A stretch of 64,000 nucleotides of DNA. It comes from Kappaphycus alvarezii (taxonomy: Eukaryota > Rhodophyta > Florideophyceae > Gigartinales > Solieriaceae). Where the stretch lies: positions 1-64,000 of the forward strand of contig NADL03000135.1 in NCBI GenBank assembly GCA_002205965.3, read 5' to 3'. Shown here in pieces: positions 3,169-60,821 of this stretch; positions within the stretch are counted from its first letter, which is position 1; each line of letters begins with the position of its first letter. Below the pieces are notes generated by a model. It was given only the letters and a program-made list of their open reading frames with translations. It ran no database searches and was not told where the DNA came from. Position numbers and translations under genes: made by a program.

Positions 3169-3472
3169 ATGAGGATAATGGGGAAAGGGGGAAAGGTTTG
3201 GGTGTTTTACTCTTGGAAGATATATCCGATCTATCCCATGGTTTTCCAGACAACCGCAATCGACTCAAAAAGGGTATACCGACACAGTAATGGGGAAGGA
3301 ACTACGCTCCCTACAATGCTGCCTTCAGGCCAGCCATCAAGCAGGCCGCATTGGACATGACGGCTGCTGCGGCGTGCCTTTGCATCAAACCCACCGAACC
3401 TTTCCGTACGTCTCCAGTGCCCTATGGGGAAAGGTTTGGGTGTTTTACTCTTGGAAGATATATGAGGATAAT
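3169..3472 (-). mobile_element. Short LINE insertion with composite 3' ends and 11-bp TSD
   Basis: The direct repeat ATGAGGATAAT occurs at 3169-3179 and again at 3462-3472, flanking a 282-bp insert (3180-3461). On the minus strand the insert ends in the family 3' terminus ACCCAAACCTTTCCCC next to 3180. A second, 37-bp piece of the same 3' end lies at its 5' side (3426-3461), so the unit is a head-to-tail composite. The longer unit matches 60578-60790 and its terminal 90 bp match 56700-56791. There is no poly(A). A variable 5' end, a fixed 3' end and a TSD of this size indicate target-primed reverse transcription. Confidence 0.75.
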
Positions 3473-3496
3473 TGCATTTACCTACGTTTCACGCAG

Positions 3497-3504
3497 TATA
3501 TAAA
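3497..3504 (+). promoter_or_regulatory. TATA box upstream of zinc-finger gene
   Basis: TATATAAA is followed by GGACACTCGAGTCCCCTCTGTG, and is conserved in copy 2 as TATAAAGG at 57623. A more diverged relative of the same upstream block lies at 44255-44470. The distance to the ATG at 4814 is long (1.3 kb), so either the leader is long or contains introns, or transcription starts nearer the gene. Confidence 0.45.
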
Positions 3505-4813
3505 GGACACTCGAGTCCCCTCTGTGCGACACGAGATAACAACCTACCCCTTCTCCAAACTACTGCACCGATCTCACGGTCTCGAGCGTCCTCTCTCACT
3601 CTCTTCTGCTGTTCAGGTCTCTCTTCTTCCAGTTACGAAGACCTCTAGGCACTTTTCGTGTCGAGAAATGCATGCGTAATCGTTGTCGTCCAAAGATGCG
3701 GCAATCACTCCGACCAGATCCACAGTCGTCTCGTTCTAAGCGATGATTGGAGTACAAGCAACGAGAGAGACGGAACCGGAACAATACTCTCCGTTCACGT
3801 TCTACAGTATTGCTTCAGGAAAATTGAGAAATGATTACGGCATGACGGCGTAAGGTTGCTTTTGCACATTTGCTGGAGACGCCAGGTTGTGGCAGTTTCA
3901 CCAACTCCTTTATTGAGACGAGCATACCCCCAGATCATTACGTGTCGAAGTTCACATGTCGACGAAGACCGTAGTCGAATATCCTCAAAGTTGACTGTCT
4001 GGTGTGCGTAACCAGTTGCCTTCTGTAATGGGTCTTCTGGGGGTGCGGCAGTTGGTTTGCTGGACGAAATCGTTGTCGTCTTGGTTGGTGAAACTCATTG
4101 CCCCTATTCAAAGGCCACGACATTTCTTGAGCTGTGTGTTTGCTGTCGCAGTCCCTTAGCTCTGCGTAATGATGAGCAAGAACGGCTGTGCTTCCGCATT
4201 AATTGCCCGCTTTGATATTGAATCACAAATTACATCTCGGAGCTTCTCGGTCACTGTGCTGGTACCGAAAGCTGACTGCGGTAATCTATGTCTTCAACGG
4301 GGTGTACGCGACGTATTGTCATAGTCATTGTCGATGGATTTGCCATGTAACCACCGTCTTTGAAGCAATGCGTTTACTGGATTGAGGGGCGGGCAGCTGC
4401 TTCGGAATGCAGTTCCTTTGCTTGAAGCTGTGAGCATCCAAAGAAGCGTATTAATAGCAATCTGCCCCGTCATACTGCTCCCTCAACTGACTCAGCTCTG
4501 AACATCCGCTTGTGATTCTCCAACTTCGACTGTTTCACGCATCACCTCTCATCGATATTCTTCAGTCAGCATTTTCCATCGACTTCGAAACAGACATTTA
4601 CTCAAGCATCAAAAAAGGAGTTTGTCAAATAGTCTCTCTATCTTCTCCAGGATTCAACGCACCGCAGGCATCACTCTCTCCGCGGCAAACAGTTCTCCCT
4701 GACGTTCTTCAAACGCCCTTCCATCCGGGAAAAAATTGCATCGTTTTCTGTGCTCCGCGCTTGCTGTAACCACAGTCTGGACCTGGTTTACCTACACTAG
4801 CGCTTGCCTCGCC

Positions 4814-6439
4814 ATGGACAATATTCATAGTGACTTTGACATTGAAATTGAAGCGATACATCAAGAAGGCCATGAAGCCAATGTTGCAGAACAAGAAAAC
4901 ATCATTGGGCTCACGATTAATCACAATGCCGATGATTACCCGGAACTGAACCTGTTTGAGAGGCTGCCTTCGATTGACTTCACACACGCTCCTACCCCTG
5001 ATGTTCTGGCAAGAGATGTGCTCAGCGGCCATCACCAAACCGCTGATCCATCCTATTTCAGCTTGATGGAGCCGCTAGCTGATATTGATCCTGAAGAAAT
5101 CAGGAAACAGCTAATAGTTCCCGGTGAGCTTGAAGAAGATATTCTTTGCAGTGAAGCCCCTCGTCCACAAGATGATGTTTGGATGAATGCAAACTGCGCA
5201 TTACACGATAACACAGCTGAGAAATACAAGCTACTAGATATTCCCGCACCTTTCTGCCAAGAAGGCAAAAATTTTGATACCGGGGGCCCTTTTGTTGAAC
5301 TGGCTTCGACACAACCATCTGAGGTGGGCAAATTCGTAGGAGACCGAAGAGATTGTAACCATGCTTTAGATGTCAGAACTGGATCACCCTCAAAATGGCC
5401 TCCAATGTCTCAAATGCATCACCACCAGCGATTGTTGCACCAACAGCACCTGCTGACAAACACGCCCGCTATAATTGCAAAAGGCGACCGACCTGGTGTC
5501 TGCGCGGAACCGCATCTGCACCAGATCAGCATGCCAGCGATCGATGTCCCTCAACCGGAGTTCAATGACGCAGTTGCGGTTTCCAGCCCTGCTCCCACGA
5601 ATGATGTGTTGGGGTCCATCGGGTGCAACAAGGGCAATCCGAAAACGTCAAGCCAAGTCATTTCCTCTCCGCAGTGTTCCTCTGGTGCAGAAAAGATGAT
5701 CAAGAAGACGAGGCGTGAGCCAAAGACAAAAAACCGTTACACAAAAGGCGCCTCTTCCTCGCACTATTGCCATATCTGTGGACGGAAATCCAAAATTGAA
5801 TTTGGTCGCTGTCAAAACGTTAACCTTGGACTTTGCAGAAAGGTAATCTGCGAGAAATGTCTTCTATTGTATGAACCGGAAAGCCTCAAGAGGGCCCTTA
5901 GCAACAACGGAACTTGGACATGCACCCATTGCCGCAATGAATGCCCTGACGTAGCGCGTTGCAAGCAGTATGCAAAGATCAACCAAAAGCGCAGGGAAAA
6001 GAAAGCTAGGGAGAGAGCCGGAAGACCTGTTGCCCAGGCGAACGCCACCTCTACGATAGTCGCGACTCCAGTAGCCTCGTGGTCTGCGACAAATCCGACC
6101 GTCCCATACCTTCCGGGCACAGTAAACGAGGCTTTGTCAGCATCATCGTTTGCTACGACCCCAGTAACCGACGCCAACTCGACTGCTAACAATTCACTTG
6201 GTGCTGGGTTGTCAAGAACTCCATCCGCTAATTCAGAAACTAATTACATTCGCAACTTGGCGCTAAGCTCTTTCGCCCCCCCCACGATTCCAAACCAGTC
6301 TGCACGTTTGATCCATCTGATGGGAGGACCTCACACCATGTATGCTAGAGTTCATGACAAGGCATTCGAGGGAAGCGCCTGTTGCGATGGGGCATCAACT
6401 CACTCAAGAGGCGCGGCCAAAGAACCCCAAGGGAGGTAG
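4814..6439 (+). CDS. CDCA7/R1-type (4CXXC) zinc-finger protein
   Basis: 541-codon ORF. The ATG at 4814 has an excellent Kozak context (CTCGCCATGGA); the frame is open upstream to a TTG at 4736 but without another ATG, so I start here. Residues 1-300 are acidic and low in obvious domains. Residues 319-383 hold a cysteine cluster: C319-x2-C322-x10-C333, C341, C346-x2-C349, W368-x-C370-x2-C373-x3-C377 and C383. The C-x2-C-x10-C and W-x-C-x2-C-x3-C spacing matches the zf-4CXXC_R1 domain of CDCA7-family chromatin proteins. A basic stretch (KINQKRREKKARERAGRP) follows and may be a nuclear signal. The C-terminal 150 residues are Ser/Thr/Asn-rich. The family binds DNA and partners HELLS-type remodellers; that role is inferred. 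A TE-encoded function cannot be excluded because the locus is repeated. Confidence 0.65.
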   Translation: MDNIHSDFDIEIEAIHQEGHEANVAEQENIIGLTINHNADDYPELNLFERLPSIDFTHAPTPDVLARDVLSGHHQTADPSYFSLMEPLADIDPEEIRKQLIVPGELEEDILCSEAPRPQDDVWMNANCALHDNTAEKYKLLDIPAPFCQEGKNFDTGGPFVELASTQPSEVGKFVGDRRDCNHALDVRTGSPSKWPPMSQMHHHQRLLHQQHLLTNTPAIIAKGDRPGVCAEPHLHQISMPAIDVPQPEFNDAVAVSSPAPTNDVLGSIGCNKGNPKTSSQVISSPQCSSGAEKMIKKTRREPKTKNRYTKGASSSHYCHICGRKSKIEFGRCQNVNLGLCRKVICEKCLLLYEPESLKRALSNNGTWTCTHCRNECPDVARCKQYAKINQKRREKKARERAGRPVAQANATSTIVATPVASWSATNPTVPYLPGTVNEALSASSFATTPVTDANSTANNSLGAGLSRTPSANSETNYIRNLALSSFAPPTIPNQSARLIHLMGGPHTMYARVHDKAFEGSACCDGASTHSRGAAKEPQGR

Positions 6440-7904: not shown

Positions 7905-8341
7905 TGAATCTAGATATTTATCCTGATAGTATCTTCTGTTCGTCTTTCTCGTTCACACGATTCCATTTGATGCATTTTATGGTTCTTAGTATGTTTCTAT
8001 GGGACTTTAGGATTAAACAAAAAGTCTAAAGAAGCTGATTAAACTGCTTTCTCTTGTGGAGGTCAAGCAAGTTGGAAGACAACTTCAAGTCAAGTCCCGA
8101 GTGACAGGAAGTTGAGCGTCAACTTCAGACCCAAGAAAAAAAATTTCCTACGCTGGTCGCAGAGCGTCAGTGGTAGAATATGCCCCTTCTATACTTTCTT
8201 GTAGCCCTTTCAACTGTCTTTCTTATCCACTCCTTTTTGTTAGTTCAAATATACCACGGTAGCACTTTTGTCGCTTGCAACACCTCCTTCTTGGGATAAT
8301 TTGTTCTGAGTATCTCTTCTTCCGACGATTTACCCCTGTCA
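7905..8341 (+). repeat. Truncated LTR of gypsy-2 family
   Basis: Aligns with the 3' ~440 bp of the gypsy-2 LTRs (from about 48953 and 55716), through the shared GTTCACACGATT, TAGCACTTTTGTCGC and the terminus TTTACCCCTGTCA. The 5' part of the LTR is missing. It is more diverged than the two gypsy-2 LTRs are from each other, so it is an older relic. An antisense ORF (RRRCCKRQKCYRG) is shared with the intact LTRs. Confidence 0.85.
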
Positions 8342-48154: not shown

Positions 48155-48668
48155 CACCAACGAGCGTTCGTGGACTTTGACACGGAAAGCAGCTACGCTC
48201 CCGTCGCATCCTTTGAGACCTTACATTTCCTGTTCTTCATAGCTGCTAACAATAAACTGATACTGGAAGGAGGCGATATTTCGAATGCGTATTTACACGG
48301 AACACTTGACGTACCGATACACATGGAACAGCCCATAAATTCCTCCCTTCAGCTGGATAGATCCGGGAACATAAGAAAATTGGAGAAGTGTTTGTATGGT
48401 GCGTAATAGGCAGTTCATATGTACTGTTCATTTGTCCATGAGAAACTCATCAATTGGGAAATGAAAACATCCACCTACGACAGTCGACTATTGTTTTTAC
48501 GTGTCGACGCAGACTTCACTGTTTTAGCAATCTCGGTGGATGATATGGCCTTTGCAACGAATTCCAAAGTTCTACTACATAACTTAAAAGACTTTTTGTC
48601 CTCAACTTTTGACATCAAATTCTTTGGTGAGCTTGAATACACGAGCTATTGTATCCCTTCATGGGATA
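48155..48668 (+). pseudogene. copia-B reverse transcriptase, 5' part
   Basis: 48170-48406 encodes SSYAPVASFETLHFLFFIAA, the DISNAYLHGTLD segment (normally DV.AFL.G.L) and LEKCLYGA. 48419-48668 continues with VLAISVDDMAFATNSKVLLH (the Y-V-D-D box, Tyr replaced by Ser) and IKFFGELEYT. The frame ends at the gypsy-2 insertion, at the duplicated GGATA (48664-48668). Confidence 0.85.
48664..48668. repeat. Left TSD of gypsy-2 (GGATA)
   Basis: GGATA directly precedes the 5' LTR and is repeated at 56146-56150 directly after the 3' LTR. Confidence 0.9.
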
Positions 48669-49388
48669 TGATGTGCGCAAATTCGCACACGAAAAAATCT
48701 AGATGAGGACCATAATTGTATACAGTATTGGAACTGGGAAGATATTTTTACAGTTTTTGAATTTGCAAGATATTTTTAATTTGGGTGAGTGTGGCAAATT
48801 CATCGGTTGATTTTTTATTTTAGGACACGCTGTCATAGTGGATGTCAGTACAGTTCTAGGTTGTGGGTGATACTACGAGTGACTCTGAAAGGTCTATATA
48901 ATGGCCACATCAATTCCCACCCCTGGCTGATGGGTGGCTGGCATGGGTATGGCACCTAGATATTTACCTTGAGGAAATATCTTCTAATGGTCTCTCTGGT
49001 TCACACGATTCCCGTGAATGCGTTTTATGGTTATTAGTATGTTTGATTGAGACTTTAGGATTAGCCGAAAAGTCTATATAAGCCGCGTAAACTGCTTCCA
49101 TTAGTGGAGGTGAAGCAAGTTGGCAGACAACTTCAGGTCAAGCTCCGAGTAGTAGGAAGTTGAGAGTCAACTTCAGACCCAAGAAAAATTTTTCCTAAGC
49201 TGGTCGCAGAGCATCAGTGGTAGACGCTGCCCCTTTTATACTTGCTTGTAGCCCTCTCAACTCTCTCCCATATACACTGCTTTTTATTTGTTCAACTATA
49301 CCACGGTAGCACTTTTGTCGCTCGCAACACCTCCGTCTTGGGGTAGTTGGTTCTAAGTATCTCTTCTCCCGACGATTTACCCCTATCA
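48669..49388 (+). repeat. gypsy-2 5' LTR
   Basis: 720 bp. The 5' end holds a near-perfect palindrome (TGTGCG-CAAATT-CGCACA, 48673-48690). TATATAA at 49075-49081 is the likely promoter TATA box; a second TATATAA lies at about 48896. An antisense ORF rich in Arg/Cys (RRRCCERQKCYRG) is also present in the 3' LTR and in the 7.9-8.3 kb relic. Confidence 0.93.
49075..49081 (+). promoter_or_regulatory. gypsy-2 LTR TATA box
   Basis: TATATAA inside AAAGTCTATATAAGCCG, conserved in the 3' LTR (about 55833), about 310 bp before the LTR end. The corresponding site in the 7.9 kb relic is mutated. Confidence 0.45.
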
Positions 49389-49408: not shown

Positions 49409-49477
49409 GGTTGCACCCGAGGTATTCGAGTTGAGCAGTCTTAGGGAACCATTCGAGGGGATTTCTTTTCTGTAATC

Positions 49478-50445
49478 ATGGATCTCAACGCTGCTCGTAT
49501 AACGTTCACAGGGGGCAAGAATGAAGACGTTGAGGAGTTTCTCTATACATATGTCAACGTTGTGATGCGTGAGAAGAGCGATGAAGAGAAGGCCGAAAGT
49601 ATCTTCGCCTATCTTCATGGTGACGCAAAGCACAAATATAAGGCCAAGTTTATCAACGGGTGGTCTCTTAACGGGAATGGGCGTAACTTCGGTGAGGTAT
49701 GTGAGTGGCTTGTGAAAGAATATGCTAAGGAGGTAGAACCAGATGAGATGATTCGTACCGCCATAGAGGCCCGGCTCAACTTCGACGATTTGTTAAGCTC
49801 ATTGGTGTACTTGTGTGATCTTTATGAAAAGGCTGGGTTCAACGCCCAAGCCAAGTACGGAATGCTGCGTAAGGCGGCTATGGGGGATAAGCGGCTCTCC
49901 GATTTCCTCCTCATCAAAGGCCCTCACACTTTTAATGAACTGAGGGGTACCATAGTAGAATTTGTCAAAAATTCGGAGACGTTTCAGTCACTAGTGAACC
50001 GAGGGAAACCCGTACATCTATGCCGATCGTACATCCTGAAAAGAATTATCAAAGGCCAGCGACTAGCGCAGCAGCATTGGAATCAGTCAGGAGCGATGTC
50101 AAAAACTTGGAAGAAAGGTTGGAAACCCGATTCGATAATCGACTTGACATGATAACCTCGCAGTTGGAAAGCCTTACTCTTACCATTAAGAAGAACCAGT
50201 CTGGGCCCCCCAAGGCCGCAGAAGTCTGTTCCTACTGTCACAAGCCTGGACACTTTGCAAATAGGTGTCCTGATAATCCACATAGAAACACTCGTTGTGG
50301 AAAGTGCGGTCGATATGGGCATCATGAAAGTAACTGCTGGTCTAAAGACAACAGAAGAGCAAATTTATCGGACGCAAGGAGTGAGTCAGGACCAGAGATG
50401 AAAATCTTACAAAACAGAAGGATCAAAGTTGACGGATGCCGGTAA
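49478..50445 (+). pseudogene. gypsy-2 Gag with two zinc knuckles
   Basis: ATG 49478 (ATCATGG) begins MDLNAARITFTGGKNEDVEE. The capsid-like segment runs to about residue 180, after which the frame shifts near 50030-50090. The continuing frame 50020-50445 has a coiled-coil segment (NLEERLETRFDNRLDMITSQ) and two CCHC knuckles, CSYCHKPGHFANRC and CGKCGRYGHHESNC. It is the nucleocapsid/capsid precursor of the element. Apart from the one shift it is well preserved. Confidence 0.9.
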
Positions 50446-51246
50446 CGTATCCATCGCTGAAGAAATCAGTCAAGTCAATGTGACAAAAAGGGATGGGGAA
50501 GGGAACATTTTATCGAAGAAACCTAGGCTAGATTATGGAATGCTGGAGCATATCCCAGCACCTGTACCTCCTCGAACCAAGAGGTCTGATCAAGTTGTTC
50601 CAGGAGTGGGAGTCACTCCGGCCAAGAAGACGAAAAAGAGTAAGAAATTTAAGAGTATCCAAGGACGTACTAGAATATGTGAAGAAGTACAATTTGGTGG
50701 CTGAGCTTGCATCGCCCCAACTGGGATAACGTTTGGTCAACTTTTGAGGGGCGACGCAGAGGATGCGAGAAAGAACTCAAAAAAATTATCAGGTCTAATA
50801 AGTCCGCTAAGGGTAAGAAACTGTTTCTTCAATCGGCCTCGACAGCACCAAGACGTCTTAAACTAGTACCAGTCAAAGTATTGGGAATGCAAACCCAAGC
50901 TCTTTTCGATTCGGGCGCTGTTCCAAACCTTATTTCAGAAACTTTGGTGACAGATCTAGGTCTTGAAATTATTCCAACTACTCGAAGAATAACTGTGGCG
51001 GATGGAACCGTCTCAAAATGCATGGGCACTGTTGACAAGGTTTCCGTGTTCTTTGGGGACTCTAAAGTTGATGTAGACTTTCTTGTCATGCCTGATCTCC
51101 CTTTCGATGCAATCATTGGCTGCCCTACCATGGAAAGACTAGGGACCTGCATTGACTTGGGCAACCAAATCGTTTCAGTTAATGTTGACGGCAGAACCGT
51201 GAAGATGCCCCTGGATTTCGACAAAAGCACACATCCGAAGATTTAA
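50429..51246 (+). pseudogene. gypsy-2 pol start and aspartic protease
   Basis: The frame 50429-50704 overlaps the gag end by 17 bases in a different frame and is Lys-rich (AKKTKKSKKFKS). It then passes, after one further shift, into 50707-51246 with TQALFDSGAVPNLISETLV (catalytic DSGA) and FDAIIGCPTMERLG (the flap/G-C-P segment). The 17-base overlap could be the site of programmed frameshifting, as many Ty3 elements use, but the second shift at 50704 looks like damage. Confidence 0.85.
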
Positions 51247-51347: not shown

Positions 51348-51645
51348 ATGGCACGGGACGATTATGATTCTGGGTTTGAAACAGATGAAGACTGGAATTC
51401 TAGGGTAGGTTTGACACCTGAATGTGTTTCTTTTTGCGATAATATCGAATCAAAGGACGGAATTCGGAGCATGAAAGAAGATTACAATTGCAAGGAAAAC
51501 AGGAATATATCGAATTCCATATCTGAAGATGTGAGCACGCCGGAAGAGGTCCTTCAAAATTTGAGGGAGATCAAGAAGAAAAAGGGCGCCAAATGGCAGA
51601 AATCCAAGGAAAAGTGCAGCACCTTCCCGCCCCCGCCTCACTGAA
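51348..51645 (+). pseudogene. gypsy-2 acidic spacer between protease and RT
   Basis: ATG 51348 begins MARDDYDSGFETDEDWNSRV. It is an acidic, Ser-rich linker with a Lys-rich end (REIKKKKGAKWQKSKEK). It is likely the natural spacer of the pol polyprotein, separated by shifts on both sides. No domain is recognised. Confidence 0.5.
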
Positions 51646-51681
51646 AATATCCGACATGTTAACATCTTCCGAAGTAATTGC

Positions 51682-53095
51682 ATGGAGTGTTCAGATTTAA
51701 GACAAGCAAGTGTACCGGTCACTCACTCATTTGAACTTACCGATACTCAACCAATTTACCACAGGCCTAGACGTCAACCGCCAAAATATGACCAATTTAT
51801 CTCAGAGAATGTTACAAGTATGCTGGAAAATGATATTATTCGGCCAGTTTCATCCCCATGGTCATTTCCAGTTGTGGTCGCACCAAAGAAGGATGGAAAG
51901 CTGCGTTTTTGCGTCGATTACCGACAACTGAACCAGAGAATGATACCCGATCGATTTCCGATTCCGAACATGGAGGAGATCCTCGAGGACTTGAAGGACG
52001 GGAGATACTTCACCTCAATTGATCTTTACACTGGTTATTGGCAGATTCCATTGGATGAAAAATGTAAGGAAAAAACAACTTTTACCAGCAAAGCCGGTAC
52101 ATTCAGGTTCGAAGTGATGCCTTTTGGTCTCATGAATGCCCAGCTACATTCCAAAGAATGATGAACGAGGTTTTGAAAGGACTTCCATTTGCAAGAGTTA
52201 TATCGATGATGTGTATATTCTCAAAACCTTGGATCAGCACATATCGCATGTCAAGACAGTGTGGAGAGGATATCGTACAGCCTGAAAATTAAGTTAAGCA
52301 AATGCTTCTTTGCGAAAACGTCTATCCAATTACTCGGTCATATCGTCGATCAAGAGGGAATTAAGTGGATCCAGAGAAAACGAAAAAAATCAAGTTGGCA
52401 CCAAGGCCCGCTTCAAAGACGGAGGTTCGAAGCTTCCTAGGACTGGCCTCATATTACAGAAGATTTATCAAAGATTTCGCCAAGACTGCAGCACCGTTAC
52501 ATGCCAGCACTACGAAGAACGGAAAATTTTACTGGAACAAGGAAATGCAGAACTGCATTTGAGGAGCTTAAAGATAAGCTATGTGTCCCCCCAGTGCTCA
52601 TGTACCCAGATTTCAAGAGACCATTCGTTGTGGAGACAGATGCCTCAGAACGGTCTTTGGGTGCTGTTTTGTCCCAAAAAGATGAAAACGGAAGACTACA
52701 CCCTGTTCAATTCGCAAGTCGCACTCTGAATGATGCGGAAAGAGATACTCAGTCTGCGAGAAAGAAGCGCTAGCTGTCGTCTTCGCACTGAAAAAGTTTC
52801 GCGTTACCTTTTATCACTCGAGAAATTTGTCTTGATAACTGATCACCAGGCACTTAAGACAGCATTCCAAAAGAAAGATGTACATCACCGCTTGGCCCGA
52901 TGGCTCGACATTTTCGCAGAATATCGGTTTGAAATTGTGTATAGGCCCGGACGCAATAATCAGCCTGCCGATTACCTATCCCGCTTGAGGGATCCACTGA
53001 TTCCAAATGAAAAAGCTTCCGGAGACATCGTCGGAGTTGCCGAGTTCAAGTGCCGAACGATAACGAGTACGAAGCTAATATTCACGGACTATTAA
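51682..53095 (+). pseudogene. gypsy-2 reverse transcriptase and RNase H
   Basis: 51682-52161 carries IIRPVSSPWSFPVVVAPKKD, FCVDYRQLNQRMIPDRFPIP, FTSIDLYTGYWQIPL and VMPFGLMNA. A shift there precedes a segment encoding the YIDD box (about 52200). 52365-52562 has SFLGLASYYRRFIKDFAKTA. 52501-52773 has FVVETDASERSLGAVLSQKD and FASRTLNDAER (RNase H). 52730-53095 has KFVLITDHQALKTAF, RLARWLDIFAEYRFEIVYRP and PADYLSRL. At least three frameshifts occur, and all family motifs remain recognisable. Confidence 0.92.
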
Positions 53096-54301
53096 ATTCC
53101 TGATGGACTAGAAATGAGAAAGGTTGATCTTGAACACAGAAATTGGGTACGCAGGAATCAAAAGGCTTTTACATTGTGGAATGGGAAACTCTTCCGACAC
53201 ACTAAAGCCGGTCCCGACTAGTGGCCCCTTTGAAAGAAAGAATGAAGATCTTGAGGACTTTCATGATGAGTAGGGCATTGGGATCTCGAAACAACCAAAA
53301 AATTCGTACTGAGAGATTCTGGTGGCCCGTATCCATAAGGACGTCTATAATTTCGTGAAAAGCTGCGACAACTGTCAAAAATTCACTCCAATACGAAGTA
53401 TAAGACAACTCTAAGTTTCCAGTTTCCGGTCTCTTTGAAACCTTCTCAATTGACTTTGCGGCCTGTTCAAAGAAACCTCTTCCGGAAACAAATATCTCCT
53501 TATAGGGGTGGAACATCTTACTGGATGGCCAATAGCAGTTGCAGTTGAGGAGGCAATGCTGAGGTGGTACTGAGATTCATCGAAAAAGAAATAATTGAAC
53601 CGTTTGGTCTTCCAAAAAGGATCATCTCGGATAACGCCCTTTGTTTTACTGCAACTTCACTGCTTCGTTTTTGGAAGAGAAAGGGATTCAGCTGAAGACC
53701 GTTCTCGCATACGCTCCTATGTCCAACGGGAAAGCGGAGAGGATGGTTGGAACCATCAAACGAGCAATATCGAAAACTATGTCGGAGAATGAAATCCAGT
53801 GGGAAGATGCCTTACCAAAAGTGTTATAACGGCTATCGTCGAAGAAGAGGAAGAAATGGACGCTCACCATTCGAGCTAATGTACGGAAGGGCTCCTAGAA
53901 TGTTACAGAGAGACATGGAAACAAATATTATCGATGAAGAGAGTAGGGAAGTTGAACTACTGCCACTGAAGGCTGGAGATCACGCCGCGGCTAACAAGAC
54001 AAGAAATAAGGATGCAGAACCTGCAGTCAGAACCTTTTCAGTTGGCTCTAAAGTACTTGTAGTACATGGAAAAGCAATGCAGCAGGCTGTGAAGTGGCCG
54101 GCCTTCCAAACCAAGTACTCGAACCCTTGCATCGTCACGGAGGAAAGACACCCGCACTATCAGCTCTGTTCAAGCTCAGGGAAGAGATCAAGGAGGGCCA
54201 TCCATGCACGTCGTCTGGTCCCTTACCATCAGAGGCCTGAAGAATTCCTTCTCACACAGGACTATGCGCAACCACGGGGCATACTCATCTTTAACTATAG
54301 A
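53096..54301 (+). pseudogene. gypsy-2 integrase
   Basis: The zinc domain survives in fragments (GHWDLETTKK; VKSCDNCQKFTP in another frame, about 53345-53395). The core has FSIDFAA (first Asp, about 53450), SDNALCFTA (second, about 53628) and MSNGKAERMVGTIKRA (Glu, 53720-53765). From 53747 a long open frame takes over with SPFELMYGRAPRML, GSKVLVVHGKAM and FQTKYSNPCIVTEERHPHYQ (GPY/F-like), ending ARRLVPYHQRPEEF. This frame continues without a stop into the duplicated-domain region. The zinc domain and first half of the core are heavily damaged. Confidence 0.88.
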
Positions 54302-55399
54302 ATGATTCCTATGGGAGGAAAAAGGGCCTGGGAATGGATCATCTCGATTACGCGGGACTACTACGAACTCCACGTAATCATCCATTTCTACATTAATATA
54401 TGCCTATGTTTTCGTACGTTGAACGGACCATTGCTACCTGAAGAAGATTTCCGACTATTAATAAGAGTTCTATTTTCATTCCAAAACGGAAGGTTCACGG
54501 AAGCAGGTCCAGAGTTTGTGGAGGTAATATATCATTACTCTATAGGAAGATATGGAATGGTAGCTGCTGGAGACTTGTCGCAAACGTATCTGAATATTAT
54601 CCGTCCAATTTACGTATTTCTCAAGAACAACCAAGACGTGCGACTGAGAGGTTACGCCTTACCCCCGGATATGGAATACAGGCTGGTCCCGTATCCTCTA
54701 TGGGAACCTTACGTTTCTCCGCCACAAATTGGGAACGTTGGAGGCGGCGAGGATCCTCCTGAAGCAGTGATGATGACCAGAGGAGGACCTTCAGGAGACA
54801 ACAACCCGCCCAGAAGAGGTTCCGGTCGTCCCCCGAGAGGACCTCGTGCAGGTCCCAGTACGTCAGGAGCTGGTCGCGGCCATTCATCGGGACCGTCCAC
54901 CACAACTTCATCTCTAGCTCTCCTTCACAACCATGCACAGCATACAGTCGGAAGAAGAAGATTATCTTTTTGGCTGCGCAATATCTCCGAGGATGCGAAC
55001 GATGCGCAGGTCATTTCTTATTTCATGATAAGCATCTGTTTATGTTTTAGGGCGCTACATGGACCGCACTTATCTTACGAAGATTCGTTCTTGATGATGC
55101 GCGTCTTCTTTTCTTATCGGCATCCATTCCTCCGGCATCTTCCAGAAGAGTTTGCATATCACATATATTTTTTCACTCTTGGAAGATTCGGAAGAGTCAC
55201 GGAAGAAGAATGTATTCAACCCCACCTCGATGTTATCAAACCAATATATGAGGCTATGCTACAAAGTGAGGTACCAGTAATGCGAACCTACTTTTTAGAG
55301 CATCATATTGGTAATCAGTTGCATCCGTACCCGTTTGAGAGACCATACATTTTATCAATAAGACAGCGAACACTAACGGAAGCAGAAGAAGAGCAGTGA
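54302..55399 (+). CDS. gypsy-2 third coding region: two tandem copies of an unknown domain
   Basis: In frame with the integrase C-terminus but probably a separate unit: ATGs at 54302 and 54311 (CCTATGGGA) lie after a pyrimidine/CAG stretch that could be a splice acceptor. About 365 residues to TGA 55397-55399. Repeat 1 (about 54344-54717) and repeat 2 (about 54964-55365) share, in order, ICLCFR-x-L-x-GP, ED then RVxFS, GR(Y/F)G, I-(R/K)-PIY and PYPxxxPY, with about equal spacing. The linker is Gly/Pro/Arg/Ser-rich (PPRRGSGRPPRGPRAG). There is no signal peptide or clear transmembrane helix; ICLCF is the centre of a short hydrophobic patch in each unit. The position is that of env-like or extra ORFs in LTR elements. 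I recognise no family. It is the longest intact frame in the element. Confidence 0.7.
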   Translation: MIPMGGKRAWEWIISITRDYYELHVIIHFYINICLCFRTLNGPLLPEEDFRLLIRVLFSFQNGRFTEAGPEFVEVIYHYSIGRYGMVAAGDLSQTYLNIIRPIYVFLKNNQDVRLRGYALPPDMEYRLVPYPLWEPYVSPPQIGNVGGGEDPPEAVMMTRGGPSGDNNPPRRGSGRPPRGPRAGPSTSGAGRGHSSGPSTTTSSLALLHNHAQHTVGRRRLSFWLRNISEDANDAQVISYFMISICLCFRALHGPHLSYEDSFLMMRVFFSYRHPFLRHLPEEFAYHIYFFTLGRFGRVTEEECIQPHLDVIKPIYEAMLQSEVPVMRTYFLEHHIGNQLHPYPFERPYILSIRQRTLTEAEEEQ

Positions 55400-55432
55400 C
55401 GAGTCGGGACGTTCGTCTTGAGCGAGAGGGCG

Positions 55433-56145
55433 TGATGTGCGCAAATTCGCACACGAAAAAATCTAGATGAGGACCATGATTGTATACAGTATCGGAATTG
55501 GGAAGATATTTTTACAGTTTTTGAATTTGCAAGATATTTTTAATTTGGGTGAGTGTGGCAAATTCATCGGTTGATTTTTTATTTTAGGACACGCTGTCAT
55601 AGTAGATGTCAGTACAGTTCCAGGTTGTGGGTGATACTACAGTGCTCTGAAAGGTCTATATAATGGCCACATCAATTCCCACCCCTGGCCGATGGGTGGC
55701 TGGCATGGGTATGGCACCTAGATATTTACCTTGAGGAAATATCTTCTAATAGTCTCTCTGGTTCACACGATTACCGTGAATACATTTTATGGTTATTAGT
55801 ATGTTTGTTGAGACTTTTGGGTAGCCAAAAGTCTATATAAGCCGAGTAAACTGCTTCCTTTAGTGGAGGTGAAGCAAGTTGGCAGACAACTTCAAGCAAG
55901 TCCGAGTAGTAGGAAGTTGAGAGTCAACTTCAGACCCAAGAAAAATTTTTCCTAAGCTGGTCGCAGAGCATCAGTGGTAGACGCTGCCCCTTTTATACTT
56001 GCTTGTAGCCCTCTCAACTCTCTCCCATATACACTGCTTTTTATTTGTTCAACTATACCACGGTAGCACTTTTGTCGCTCGCAACACCTCCGTCTTGGGG
56101 TAGTTGGTTCTAAGTATCTCTTCTCCCGACGATTTACCCCTATCA
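55433..56145 (+). repeat. gypsy-2 3' LTR
   Basis: 713 bp, collinear with 48669-49388 with small indels near the middle (about 55820 and 55890). A purine run (AGCGAGAGGGCG) just before 55433 is the likely polypurine tract. Confidence 0.92.
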
Positions 56146-56150
56146 GGATA

Positions 56151-57454: not shown

Positions 57455-57622
57455 TCACAGTACAAAGCGAAAGAACAAATCCTCTCTTGAGTTGCATTAT
57501 TATCCTCGCATTTAATTATCAGGATACTGTACTGAATTATCGAGAGTCATTGTCCATTACTGTACTCTCCTTCTAAAGCTACAGTACATATGCTATTGCA
57601 TTTACATATGTCTCACGCAGCA

Positions 57623-57628
57623 TATAAA
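57623..57628 (+). promoter_or_regulatory. TATA box of copy 2
   Basis: TATAAA within CATATAAAGGACACTCGAG, conserved with copy 1 (3497). Confidence 0.4.
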
Positions 57629-60469
57629 GGACACTCGAGTCCCCTCTGTGGGACAGTCCCCAGTAGATACTGAATGCATGAAACTTCTTTCTTCACTCAA
57701 GAGAACAACTTACCCCTTCTCCAAACTTCAACAAAGTTCTCAAGGTCTCGAGCGTCCTCTCTCACTCTCTTCTTTTGTTCAGATCTCTCTTCTTTCAGAT
57801 ACGAAGACTTCTAGGCACTTCTCGTGTCGAGAAATGCATGCTTTATCTTTGTCTTCCAAAGATGCGGCAATCACTCCGACCAGATTCACAGTCGTTTCGT
57901 TCTAAGTGATGATTGGAGTACAAGCAACGAGGGAGACGTAACCGGAACGATACGCTCCGTTCACTCTCTACAGTATTGCTTCAGGAAAATTGAGAAATGA
58001 TTACGGCATGACGGCGTAAGGTTGCTTTTGCACATTTGCTGAAGACGGCAGGTTGTAGCAGTTTCACCAACTCCTTTATTGAAACGAGAATACCCCTAGA
58101 TCATTACGTGTCGAAGTTCACATGTCGGCGAAGACCGTAGTCGAATATCCGCAAAGTTGACTGTCTGGTGTGCGTAACCAGTTGCCTTCTGTAATGGGTC
58201 TTCTGGGTGGTGCGGTATTTGGTTTGCTGGACGAAATCGTTGTCGTCTTTGTTGGTGAATTCATTGCCCCTATTCAAAGGCCACGACATTTCTTGAGCTG
58301 TGTGTTTGCTGTCGGGGTCCCTTACCTCTGCGTAATGATGAGCAAGAACTGCTGTGTTTCCGCATTAATTGCTCGCTTTGATATTGAATCACAAATTACA
58401 TCTCGGAGCTTCTCGGTCTCTGCGCTGGTACCGAAAGCTGACCGCAGTATTCTATGTCTCCAACGTGGTGTACGCGATGTATTGTGAAAGTAATTGTCGA
58501 TGGATATGCCATATACCACCGTCTTTGAAGCAATGCGTTTACTGGATTGAGGGGCGGGCAGCTGCTTCGGAATGCAGTTCCTTTGCTTGAAGCTGAGCAC
58601 CCAAAGAAGCGTATTAATAGAAATCTGTTCCGTCACACTGCTCCCTCAACTGACTCAGCTCTGAACATCCGCTTGTGATTCTCCAACTTGGACTGTTTCA
58701 CGCATCACCTCTCATCGATATTCTTCAGTCAGAATTTTCCATCGACTTCGAAACAGGTATTGACCCAAGCATCAAGAAAGGAGTTCGTCACGTAGTCTAT
58801 CTCTCATCTCAAGGATTCACCGCACCCCAGGGATCACTCTCTCCGCGACAAACAGTCCTCCCTGACGTTCTTCAAAAGCGCTTCCATCCGGGAAAAATTA
58901 CGTCGTTTTCTGTGCTCCGCGCTTGCTGTAACCACAGTCTGGACCTGCTTTGCCTCCACCGGCGCTTGCCTCGCCTGGGCAATATTCAGATTGAATTTGA
59001 TATTCAAATTGAAGCGATGCATCAAGAAGGCCACGAAGTCAATGTTGCAGAACAAGAAAAAACATCATCGGTCTCGCGATTAATCAAAATGCCCGGTGAT
59101 TACCCGGAACTGAACCTGTTTGAGAGGCTGCCTTCGATTGACTTCACACACGCTCCTACCCCTGATGTTCTGGCAAGAGAAGTGCTCAGCGGCCATCACC
59201 AAATCGCTGATCCATCCTATTTCAGCCTGATGGAGCCGCTAGCTGATATTGATCCTGAAGAAATCAGGAAACAACTAATAGTTCCCGGTGAGCTTGAAGA
59301 AGATATTCTTTGCAGTGAAGCCCCTCGTCCAGAAGACGATGTTTGGATGAATGCAAGCTGCGCACAAAACGATAACTTAGCTGAGAAAGACAAGCTACTA
59401 GATATTCCCGCACCTTTCTGCCAAGAAGGCAAAAATTTTGATACCGGGGGCCCTTTCGTTGAACTGGCTTCGACATAACCATCTGAGGTGGGCAAATTCG
59501 TACGAGACCGAAGAGGTTGTAACCATGCTTTAGATGTCAGACCTGGATCACCCTCAAAATGGCCTCCAATGTCTCAAATGCATCACCACCAGCGATTGTT
59601 GTACCAACAGCACCTGCTGACAAACATGCCCGCTATAATTGCAAAAGGCGACCGACCTGGTGTCTGCGCGGAACCGCATCTGCACCAGATCAGCATGCCA
59701 GCGATCGATGTCCCTCAACCGGAGTTCAATGACGCAGTTGGGTTTTCCAGCCCTGCTCCCACGAATGATGTGTTGGGGTTTATCGGGTGCAACAAGGGCA
59801 ATCCGAGAACGTCAAGCCAAGTCATTTCCTCTCCTCGGTGTTCCTCTGGTGCAGAAAAGATGATCAAGAAGACGAGGCGTGAGCCAAAGACAAAAAACTG
59901 CTGTACAAAAGGCGCCTCTTCCTCACACTTTTACCATATCTGTGGAGGGAAATCCAAAATTGAATTTGGTCGCTGTCAAAACGTTAACCTTGGACTTTGC
60001 AGAAAGGTAATCTGCGAGAAATGTCTTCTATTGTATGAACCGGAAAGCCTCAAGAGGGCCCTTAGCAACAACGGAACTTGGACATGCACCCATTGCCGCA
60101 ATGAATGCCCTGACGTAGCGCGTTGCAAGCAGTATGCAAAGATCAACCAAAAGCGCAGGGAAAAGAAAGCTAGGGAGAGAGCCGGAAGACCTGTTGCCCA
60201 GGCGAACGCCACCTCTACGATAGTCGCGACTCCAGTAGCCTCGTGGTCTGCGACAAATCCGACCGTCCATACCTTCGGGCACAGTAAACGAGGCTTTGTC
60301 AGCATCATCGTTTGTTACGACCCCAGTAACTGACGCCAACTCAACTGCTAACAATTCACTTGGTGCTAGGTTGTAAAGAACTCCATCCGCTAATTCCGAA
60401 CCTAATTACATTCGCAACTTGGCTCTAAGCTGTTCCTGTCCCCCCCACGATTCCAAACTAGTCGGCACT

Positions 60470-60520
60470 TTTGGACCATCAACCAGTAAACCACCCAAAC
60501 CTTTCCCTGTTTGAACCATC
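60470..60520 (+). mobile_element. 29-bp LINE 3' end insertion with 11-bp TSD
   Basis: TTTGGACCATC (60470-60480) and TTTGAACCATC (60510-60520) flank CAGTAAACCACCCAAACC plus CTTTCCCTG, the family 3' end. Copy 1 of the large repeat has a single TTTGATCCATC at the equivalent place (6308), an empty-site control. Confidence 0.7.
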
Positions 60521-60564
60521 TGATTGGAGGACCTCACACAATGTATGCTAGAGTTCGTGACAAG

Positions 60565-60821
60565 GCATTTGGGGGAAACGTGGCTGTGAGGGCAAAGGTT
60601 CGGGGGGTTTTGATGCAAAGGCACGCTGCAGCAGCCGTCATGTCCAATGCGGCCTGCTTGATGGCTGGCCTGCAGGTAGCATTTTAGGAAGCGTAGTTCC
60701 TTCCCCATTACGCTGTAGGTATACCCTTTTTGAGTCGATTGCGGTTGTCTGGAAAACCATGGTATAGGTCGGAAATATCTTCCAACAGTAAAACACTTTA
60801 TACATCATGCCTTTGGGGGAA
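60565..60821 (+). mobile_element. 231-bp LINE insertion with 13-bp TSD
   Basis: GCATTTGGGGGAA (60565-60577) and GCCTTTGGGGGAA (60809-60821) flank 60578-60808. Copy 1 of the large repeat lacks the insert (GCATTCGAGGGAA near 6361). The insert matches the 3180-3461 unit from GGTTTGATGCAAAGGC through GTAAAACAC. Its extreme 3' end differs (TTTATACATCAT instead of CCAAACCTTTCCC). Confidence 0.75.

Follow-up and report, generated by a model that had tools for sequence, protein, structure and literature searches.

A two-unit extension of Pol downstream of the integrase in a putative Ty3/gypsy-type retrotransposon of Kappaphycus alvarezii

Modules downstream of the integrase

Modules placed after the integrase decide the landing site of some retrotransposons, as chromodomains and the Ty3 tail do, and to our knowledge few types of such module are known. 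A doubled and constrained module without relatives in the libraries searched, present in a single genome in at least 112 near-identical copies besides thousands of unscored candidates, lends itself well to testing for a new tether or accessory function and marks an algal element lineage. As far as the accessible text of the reports describes them, the chromodomain of chromoviruses and the integrase tail of Ty3 occupy the same slot as the protein region described here (referred to as the tail), C-terminal to the integrase C-terminal domain and in the same frame (PMC8632968, PMC3605345). In Ty3, the domain that immediately follows the C-terminal domain of the integrase is described as contacting TFIIIB and the target DNA (PMC8632968). 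The tail of the present element is doubled and has about 365 residues, compared with 66 in Ty3 (PMC8632968), and it is without a chromodomain match and predicted, at low confidence, to be helical, whereas the chromodomain is a small beta barrel (PMC8632968, PMC3605345).

The closest case in the open-licence literature searched, judging from the accessible part of its report, is Gypsy_Ds1 of the ostracod Darwinula stevensoni, likewise a Ty3/gypsy Pol with an atypical post-integrase extension, of 250 residues in that element (PMC7998251). For that extension, too, ordinary searches gave no homologs in the text available, and the authors weigh a remnant of env or the binding of integrase to other proteins (PMC7998251). 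Gypsy_Ds1 differs in its remote similarity to a coiled-coil spike by HHpred (PMC7998251), and the tail differs from it, by the description given there, in its two homologous units and linker, its many copies in three families and its having been tested for selection. The extra ORFs of PMC5408684 likewise lie before the 3' LTR, are found in most copies of a family and are often of unknown function; as described in the accessible text, they are stand-alone and, in rotifers, typically come from spliced messages, whereas the frame described here is continuous with the integrase. No description of a doubled post-integrase tail was found in the titles and opening parts of abstracts of the open-licence literature.

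Organization of the element and its tail

The window is the whole stretch of DNA analysed, 64,000 nucleotides in length, to which all positions refer, and its copy of the element is the reference member of family A (Table 1). The LTR pair and the target site duplication, together with the domain order (protease, reverse transcriptase and RNase H in the window; RNase H followed by integrase in another copy, L006), indicate an LTR retrotransposon of the Ty3/gypsy type. The element is young and present in high copy number. Both gag and pol, including the reverse transcriptase, are broken in the window copy, and the frame containing the tail stays open. For the gag region, all Pfam rows were weak or at chance level, including a zinc finger below the cut-off. 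Judged by eye from the open frames, the element looks as if it is nested in an older element of the copia type.

Table 1 Positions of the features of the element in the window.
Feature	Position	Strand	Remarks
Target site duplication, left	48664..48668	.	GGATA, identical to the five bases after the 3' LTR
5' LTR (TG...CA)	48669..49388	+	96.9% identical to the 3' LTR over 720 columns
gag region, broken frame	49445..50445	+	Open frames 49445-50152 and 49939-50445
CCHC-type knuckles in the gag region	near 50230-50340	+	Judged by eye
Aspartic protease	50683..51246	+	PF13650, E 5e-12
Reverse transcriptase (part)	51565..52161	+	PF00078, E 3e-13
RNase H (part)	52730..53095	+	PF17917, E 1e-8
Open frame: C-terminal part of integrase, unit 1 and unit 2	53696..55399	+	Stop codon 55397-55399
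Unit 1	54293..54715	+	Alignment with unit 2
Hydrophobic stretch of unit 1, 15 residues	54368..54412	+	Kyte-Doolittle 1.95 over 15 residues, 1.28 over 19 residues
Linker	54716..54928	+	About half Gly/Pro/Ser, four RG
Unit 2	54929..55396	+	Alignment with unit 1
Hydrophobic stretch of unit 2, 15 residues	55004..55048	+	Kyte-Doolittle 1.96 over 15 residues, 1.44 over 19 residues
Spacer from stop codon to 3' LTR, 33 nt	55400..55432	+	Purine-rich toward its end
3' LTR	55433..56145	+	LTR self-comparison
Target site duplication, right	56146..56150	.	GGATA

The tail had initially been annotated as a third coding region of the element, at 54302-55399. The open frame, of 567 codons and the longest in the window copy, instead starts within the integrase, and the chance of so many stop-free codons at one given place is about 1e-15 with the base composition of the window. 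In L006, an unaltered copy, RNase H (E 3e-5, just under the Pfam cut-off), the H2C2 zinc finger (Integrase_H2C2, PF17921, E 1e-18), the integrase core (PF00665, E 5e-9) and both units are contained in one open frame. Because the integrase through both units is read in one frame in this copy, the tail is a C-terminal extension of Pol, with its end 33 nt short of the 3' LTR. In the more distant family B described below, unit 1 comes directly after integrase residue 200-201, in frame and with no insertion, at 8 of the 10 loci, while L009 and L015 have a frameshift at this join. Continuity of the frame with the integrase is thus seen in the window, in L006 and at these eight loci, and the homology between the units begins 5' of the ATG at 54302, with unit 2 aligning from 54293. 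A separate third ORF starting at this ATG was therefore rejected.

The tail consists of unit 1, a linker and unit 2. BLASTP aligned the units (54302-54751 against 54929-55396) without gaps, with 49 of 135 residues identical (36%), 92.8 bits and an E-value of 1e-29. Their local alignment score of 236 lies far above those of 2000 shuffles (mean 29.8, SD 4.9, maximum 58; z 42), in agreement with the initial annotation, which had proposed two homologous units at this place and named an alignment no better than shuffled sequence as grounds for abandoning them. The motifs it had listed (ICLCFR-x-L-x-GP, RVxFS, GR(Y/F)G, I-x-PIY and PYPxxxPY) line up between both units, and the Gly/Pro/Ser-rich linker that it had placed between them is present and Arg-rich as well. 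Its unit length of roughly 110 residues was too short, the units having about 135-140 residues. Identities between the units at codon positions 1, 2 and 3 are 47, 63 and 39%, respectively, as expected of two coding copies long under protein constraint. Taken on its sequence, the tail appears to be an anciently duplicated module whose units, each of about 140 residues, are joined by a flexible Gly/Pro/Ser/Arg linker.

Copies, older families and constraint

The genome searched comprises 336 Mb in 884 contigs. Phycobiliprotein-like genes in it (3 matches among 4 candidates, two of which resemble apcB but stay under the NCBIfam cut-offs) indicate that the host is probably a red alga or one of its relatives. 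With the whole tail as query, the best 112 of 5687 candidates were scored, and all 112 were 99-100% identical and stop-free, with 364-365 residues covered and open frames of up to 1373 codons. For a sample picked independently of the tail, 606 bases of integrase DNA were used as query and the best 40 of 1766 candidates were scored; one of these was the window itself, and 37 of the remaining 39 copies were examined. The tail was present at more than 90% identity in 36 of the 37, and the possibility that other copies lack it, raised at the outset, was not borne out. The divergent copy L093 was excluded from the substitution counts.

As assembled, the tail is uninterrupted in 2 of the 37 integrase-picked copies and interrupted in the other 35. 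The initial description of this region as the longest intact frame of an otherwise frameshifted element holds for the window copy but not for the family, and with only 2 of 37 copies intact there, the intact frame in the window is a matter of luck. Special protection of the tail from indels had been suggested by L001-L008, which were chosen for their intactness, and was rejected on the integrase-picked copies. The indels in the latter amount to 178 deletion and 58 insertion events; homopolymer sequencing error is a possible cause in view of the excess of deletions, but only 43 of the 178 deletions lie at runs of at least 3 (background 20%). Open-frame lengths recur in family A (for example 206, 211, 318, 333, 481, 588, 649 and 758), which points to shared breaks, either inherited by still-multiplying sub-families or arising from recurrent assembly errors. 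Over 930 nt of the integrase (53372-54301), the window copy is 9-15 indels apart from 17 other copies and L001 is likewise 12-18 indels apart, while most other pairs differ by fewer. At L020 (the same place as L055), unit 2 and an LTR are directly followed by the 5' interior of the element, perhaps as two elements with one LTR in common.

Of three database proteins found by profile searches, P0001, P0002 and P0003, the first two led to older relatives. With P0002 as query, ten loci (L009-L017 and L019) were found and designated family B, and tblastn showed that all ten retain the arrangement of integrase C-terminus, unit 1 and unit 2. Their unit 2 is 58-66% identical to that of the window and their unit 1 43-59% in the better pieces, with 31% in L009; the copies are decayed, with stops in most. 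P0001 corresponds to a locus of this same genome (100%, L106) and therefore gives no evidence of wider distribution. This locus has integrase, unit 1 (41-43%), remnants of the linker and unit 2 (64%) in order; it is decayed, its frame is shifted at the join of integrase and unit 1, and it represents a third family, C. The in-frame fusion of the tail to the integrase is found in the two families in which it is readable (A and B). Unit 2 of the window is 64% identical to P0001 and 56% to P0002 compared with 36% to its own unit 1, and its identities to P0001, P0002, L012 and L041 range over 55-66%. Since the units are closer to their counterparts than to each other, the duplication appears to predate the divergence of families A, B and C, clearly for unit 2 and less so for the decayed unit 1 of family C and of L009.

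For the codon comparison of families A and B, tblastn stretches of at least 42% identity were used. Below this value lie cross matches between the two units as well as genuine matches that are poorer or frame-shifted, and a few pieces of L011 come from other copies. Pooled pN/pS values were 0.34 for unit 1, 0.28 for unit 2 and 0.35 for the integrase C-terminus, with a filter that lowers pN equally for the three and with pS (0.76-0.88) near saturation. The constraint on the tail between families thus appears to resemble that on the integrase. Within family A, substitutions in the integrase-picked copies were counted against the window copy without placement on a tree; an earlier count on loci mostly picked by protein similarity was dropped for that bias. 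The 106 distinct substitutions comprise 56 silent, 47 replacing and 3 stop changes, and the silent share exceeds the 28% expected both overall (p 7e-8) and among the 27 substitutions found in more than one copy (18 silent, p 6e-5). Silent changes made up 30 of 61 distinct (p 0.0003) and 12 of 14 shared substitutions (p 1e-5) in unit 2, 13 of 21 (p 0.001) and 3 of 5 (p 0.16) in unit 1, and 12 of 23 (p 0.02) and 3 of 8 (p 0.46) in the linker. These counts indicate purifying selection within the family, with strong evidence for unit 2, fair evidence for unit 1 and weak evidence for the linker. An old duplication under constraint, as first proposed, is supported by the closeness of the units to their counterparts in families B and C, with the pN/pS of 0.28-0.34 and with the excess of silent changes. 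That the tail is a mere passenger, a captured host domain without function for the element, would fit the mostly interrupted copies in the assembly; nevertheless, the same order in three diverged families and the purifying selection between and within families strongly disfavour this explanation, and we consider it very improbable.

Relatives, predicted structure and candidate functions

A search of 5.8 billion proteins with the whole tail gave no match at E 0.01 among 1540 candidates; the candidates were limited to 0.55-1.75 times the query length, so that a full-length Pol with the tail falls outside the range. Profile searches of the same collection, under the same length limits, found P0001 and P0002 and then P0003, whose source label "lgn" we take to denote assemblies of public reads. 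In this assembly P0002 is matched at 68% at best, and within the length range searched, the known occurrence of the tail is this genome, P0002 and P0003. There was no significant match to the tail in viral contigs, none in PHROGs (chance-level rows for P0001 and P0002 only) and none in the PDB with single sequences. In Pfam at E up to 1, no chromodomain row appeared for the frame, the units or L006 and no envelope family for the frame or the units, while six homologous members gave nothing significant (DUF6080 at E 0.096 in one). The first reading had recognized no integrase-tail, chromodomain, RNase H or envelope family here and would have yielded to a profile search that assigned a known one; Pfam, PHROGs and the PDB assigned none. 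We accordingly regard the tail as a Pol extension whose domain family has no representative in the libraries searched.

AlphaFold2 models, made from four sequences each, had a mean pLDDT of 55 for unit 1 and 45 for unit 2. Both contain a first helix, a long helix over the hydrophobic stretch and four more helices (one very short) in similar places, and these low-confidence models tentatively suggest that the units are probably mostly helical. In PDB profile searches, fission yeast Sap1 was the top hit of three overlapping profiles, with best E-values of 0.94, 0.5 and 0.39, and the alignment spans the region of the three main predicted helices. The tail might accordingly belong, in diverged form, to a known helical DNA-binding family (Sap1 or Myb-like) or have another known fold hidden from profiles. 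We regard this as quite unlikely, because the Sap1 hits are below significance and come from profiles that share sequences, the unit-1 profile gives AP-2 mu instead (E 0.1, not significant) so that the profiles of the two units disagree, and Pfam finds neither protein. Other weak PDB rows, to endothelin-converting enzyme and antichymotrypsin, were not significant either. Foldseek and VIA-align, run with the weak unit-1 model only, gave nothing notable, with no Foldseek match below E 2.9.

The 15-residue hydrophobic stretch of both units is also present in P0001 and P0002, and the Kyte-Doolittle values over 19 residues range from 1.28 to 2.15 across the four. An envelope-like or membrane protein, in which the stretch of each unit could be embedded in the membrane, would account for this conservation. 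The usual cut-off for a membrane helix is 1.6, however, and both units of the window (1.28 and 1.44) fall under it as borderline cases; the frame fused to the integrase, read without splicing, offers no ORF start for a signal peptide, and Pfam gives no envelope match. A membrane role is therefore improbable.

The role that we tentatively favour, as possible rather than probable, is that of a Pol extension which attaches to a host partner, to chromatin or to nucleic acid in nuclear entry or integration. The tail would be made together with the integrase and would either stay on it or be cut off by the protease; it may then bind its partner during nuclear entry or integration and so play the part of the chromodomain that chromoviruses have in this position. 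With two linked units, a single integrase subunit or adjacent ones could hold on to two sites. A tether or integration cofactor appears likeliest because the element has kept the fusion instead of a separate ORF, and because target factors are bound, as described in the accessible text, by chromodomains and by the Ty3 tail in the same slot (PMC8632968).

The main rival fits the anatomy equally well: the tail could be cut from Pol by the protease of the element and act as a separate accessory protein in RNA export, particle assembly, counter-silencing or the like, and not in integration. Cleavage is the usual fate of the parts of Pol, and the position in the polyprotein, the linker-rich design, the lack of a family match and a unit 2 at least as constrained as the integrase C-terminus all agree with such a product. 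On the other side stands the lack of any stop codon from integrase to unit 1 in the window, in L006 and at 8 of the 10 family B joins, and we hold release of this kind to be somewhat unlikely.

Targets of the favoured tether were sought in the 3' flanks; of 49 loci, 31 had a clean LTR end, and these gave 25 distinct flanks. The 25 flanks have no common target, with a weak base preference at the site, which counts against a strict sequence target but is compatible with a chromatin partner. One flank is the interior of the element itself, two share 54 bases, and five besides that of the window match repeats found in the window. A more far-reaching form of the tether, which we judge unlikely, is that an undescribed duplicated domain family has taken the place of the chromodomain as the tether carried by the integrase in an algal Ty3/gypsy lineage and directs the intasome to a novel chromatin or DNA partner. 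If true, this partner would be one used by no known retrotransposon.

The window holds further repeats. The right-hand 60% of the family LTR recurs at 7910-8341 with 84% identity, and self-comparison of the window matched no further part of the element beside it. A unit of about 3 kb is repeated at 3471-6377 and 57595-60580 (91% identity), and one copy carries a 578-codon ORF matching zf-4CXXC_R1 (E 2e-5), presumably the family of CDCA7; it is possibly a captured or duplicated chromatin gene. On the minus strand, a second gypsy-type integrase end at 62349-63089 matches SH3_Tf2-1 and has, by eye, a chromodomain-like tail, and the genome may thus also have elements with the usual module at this place.
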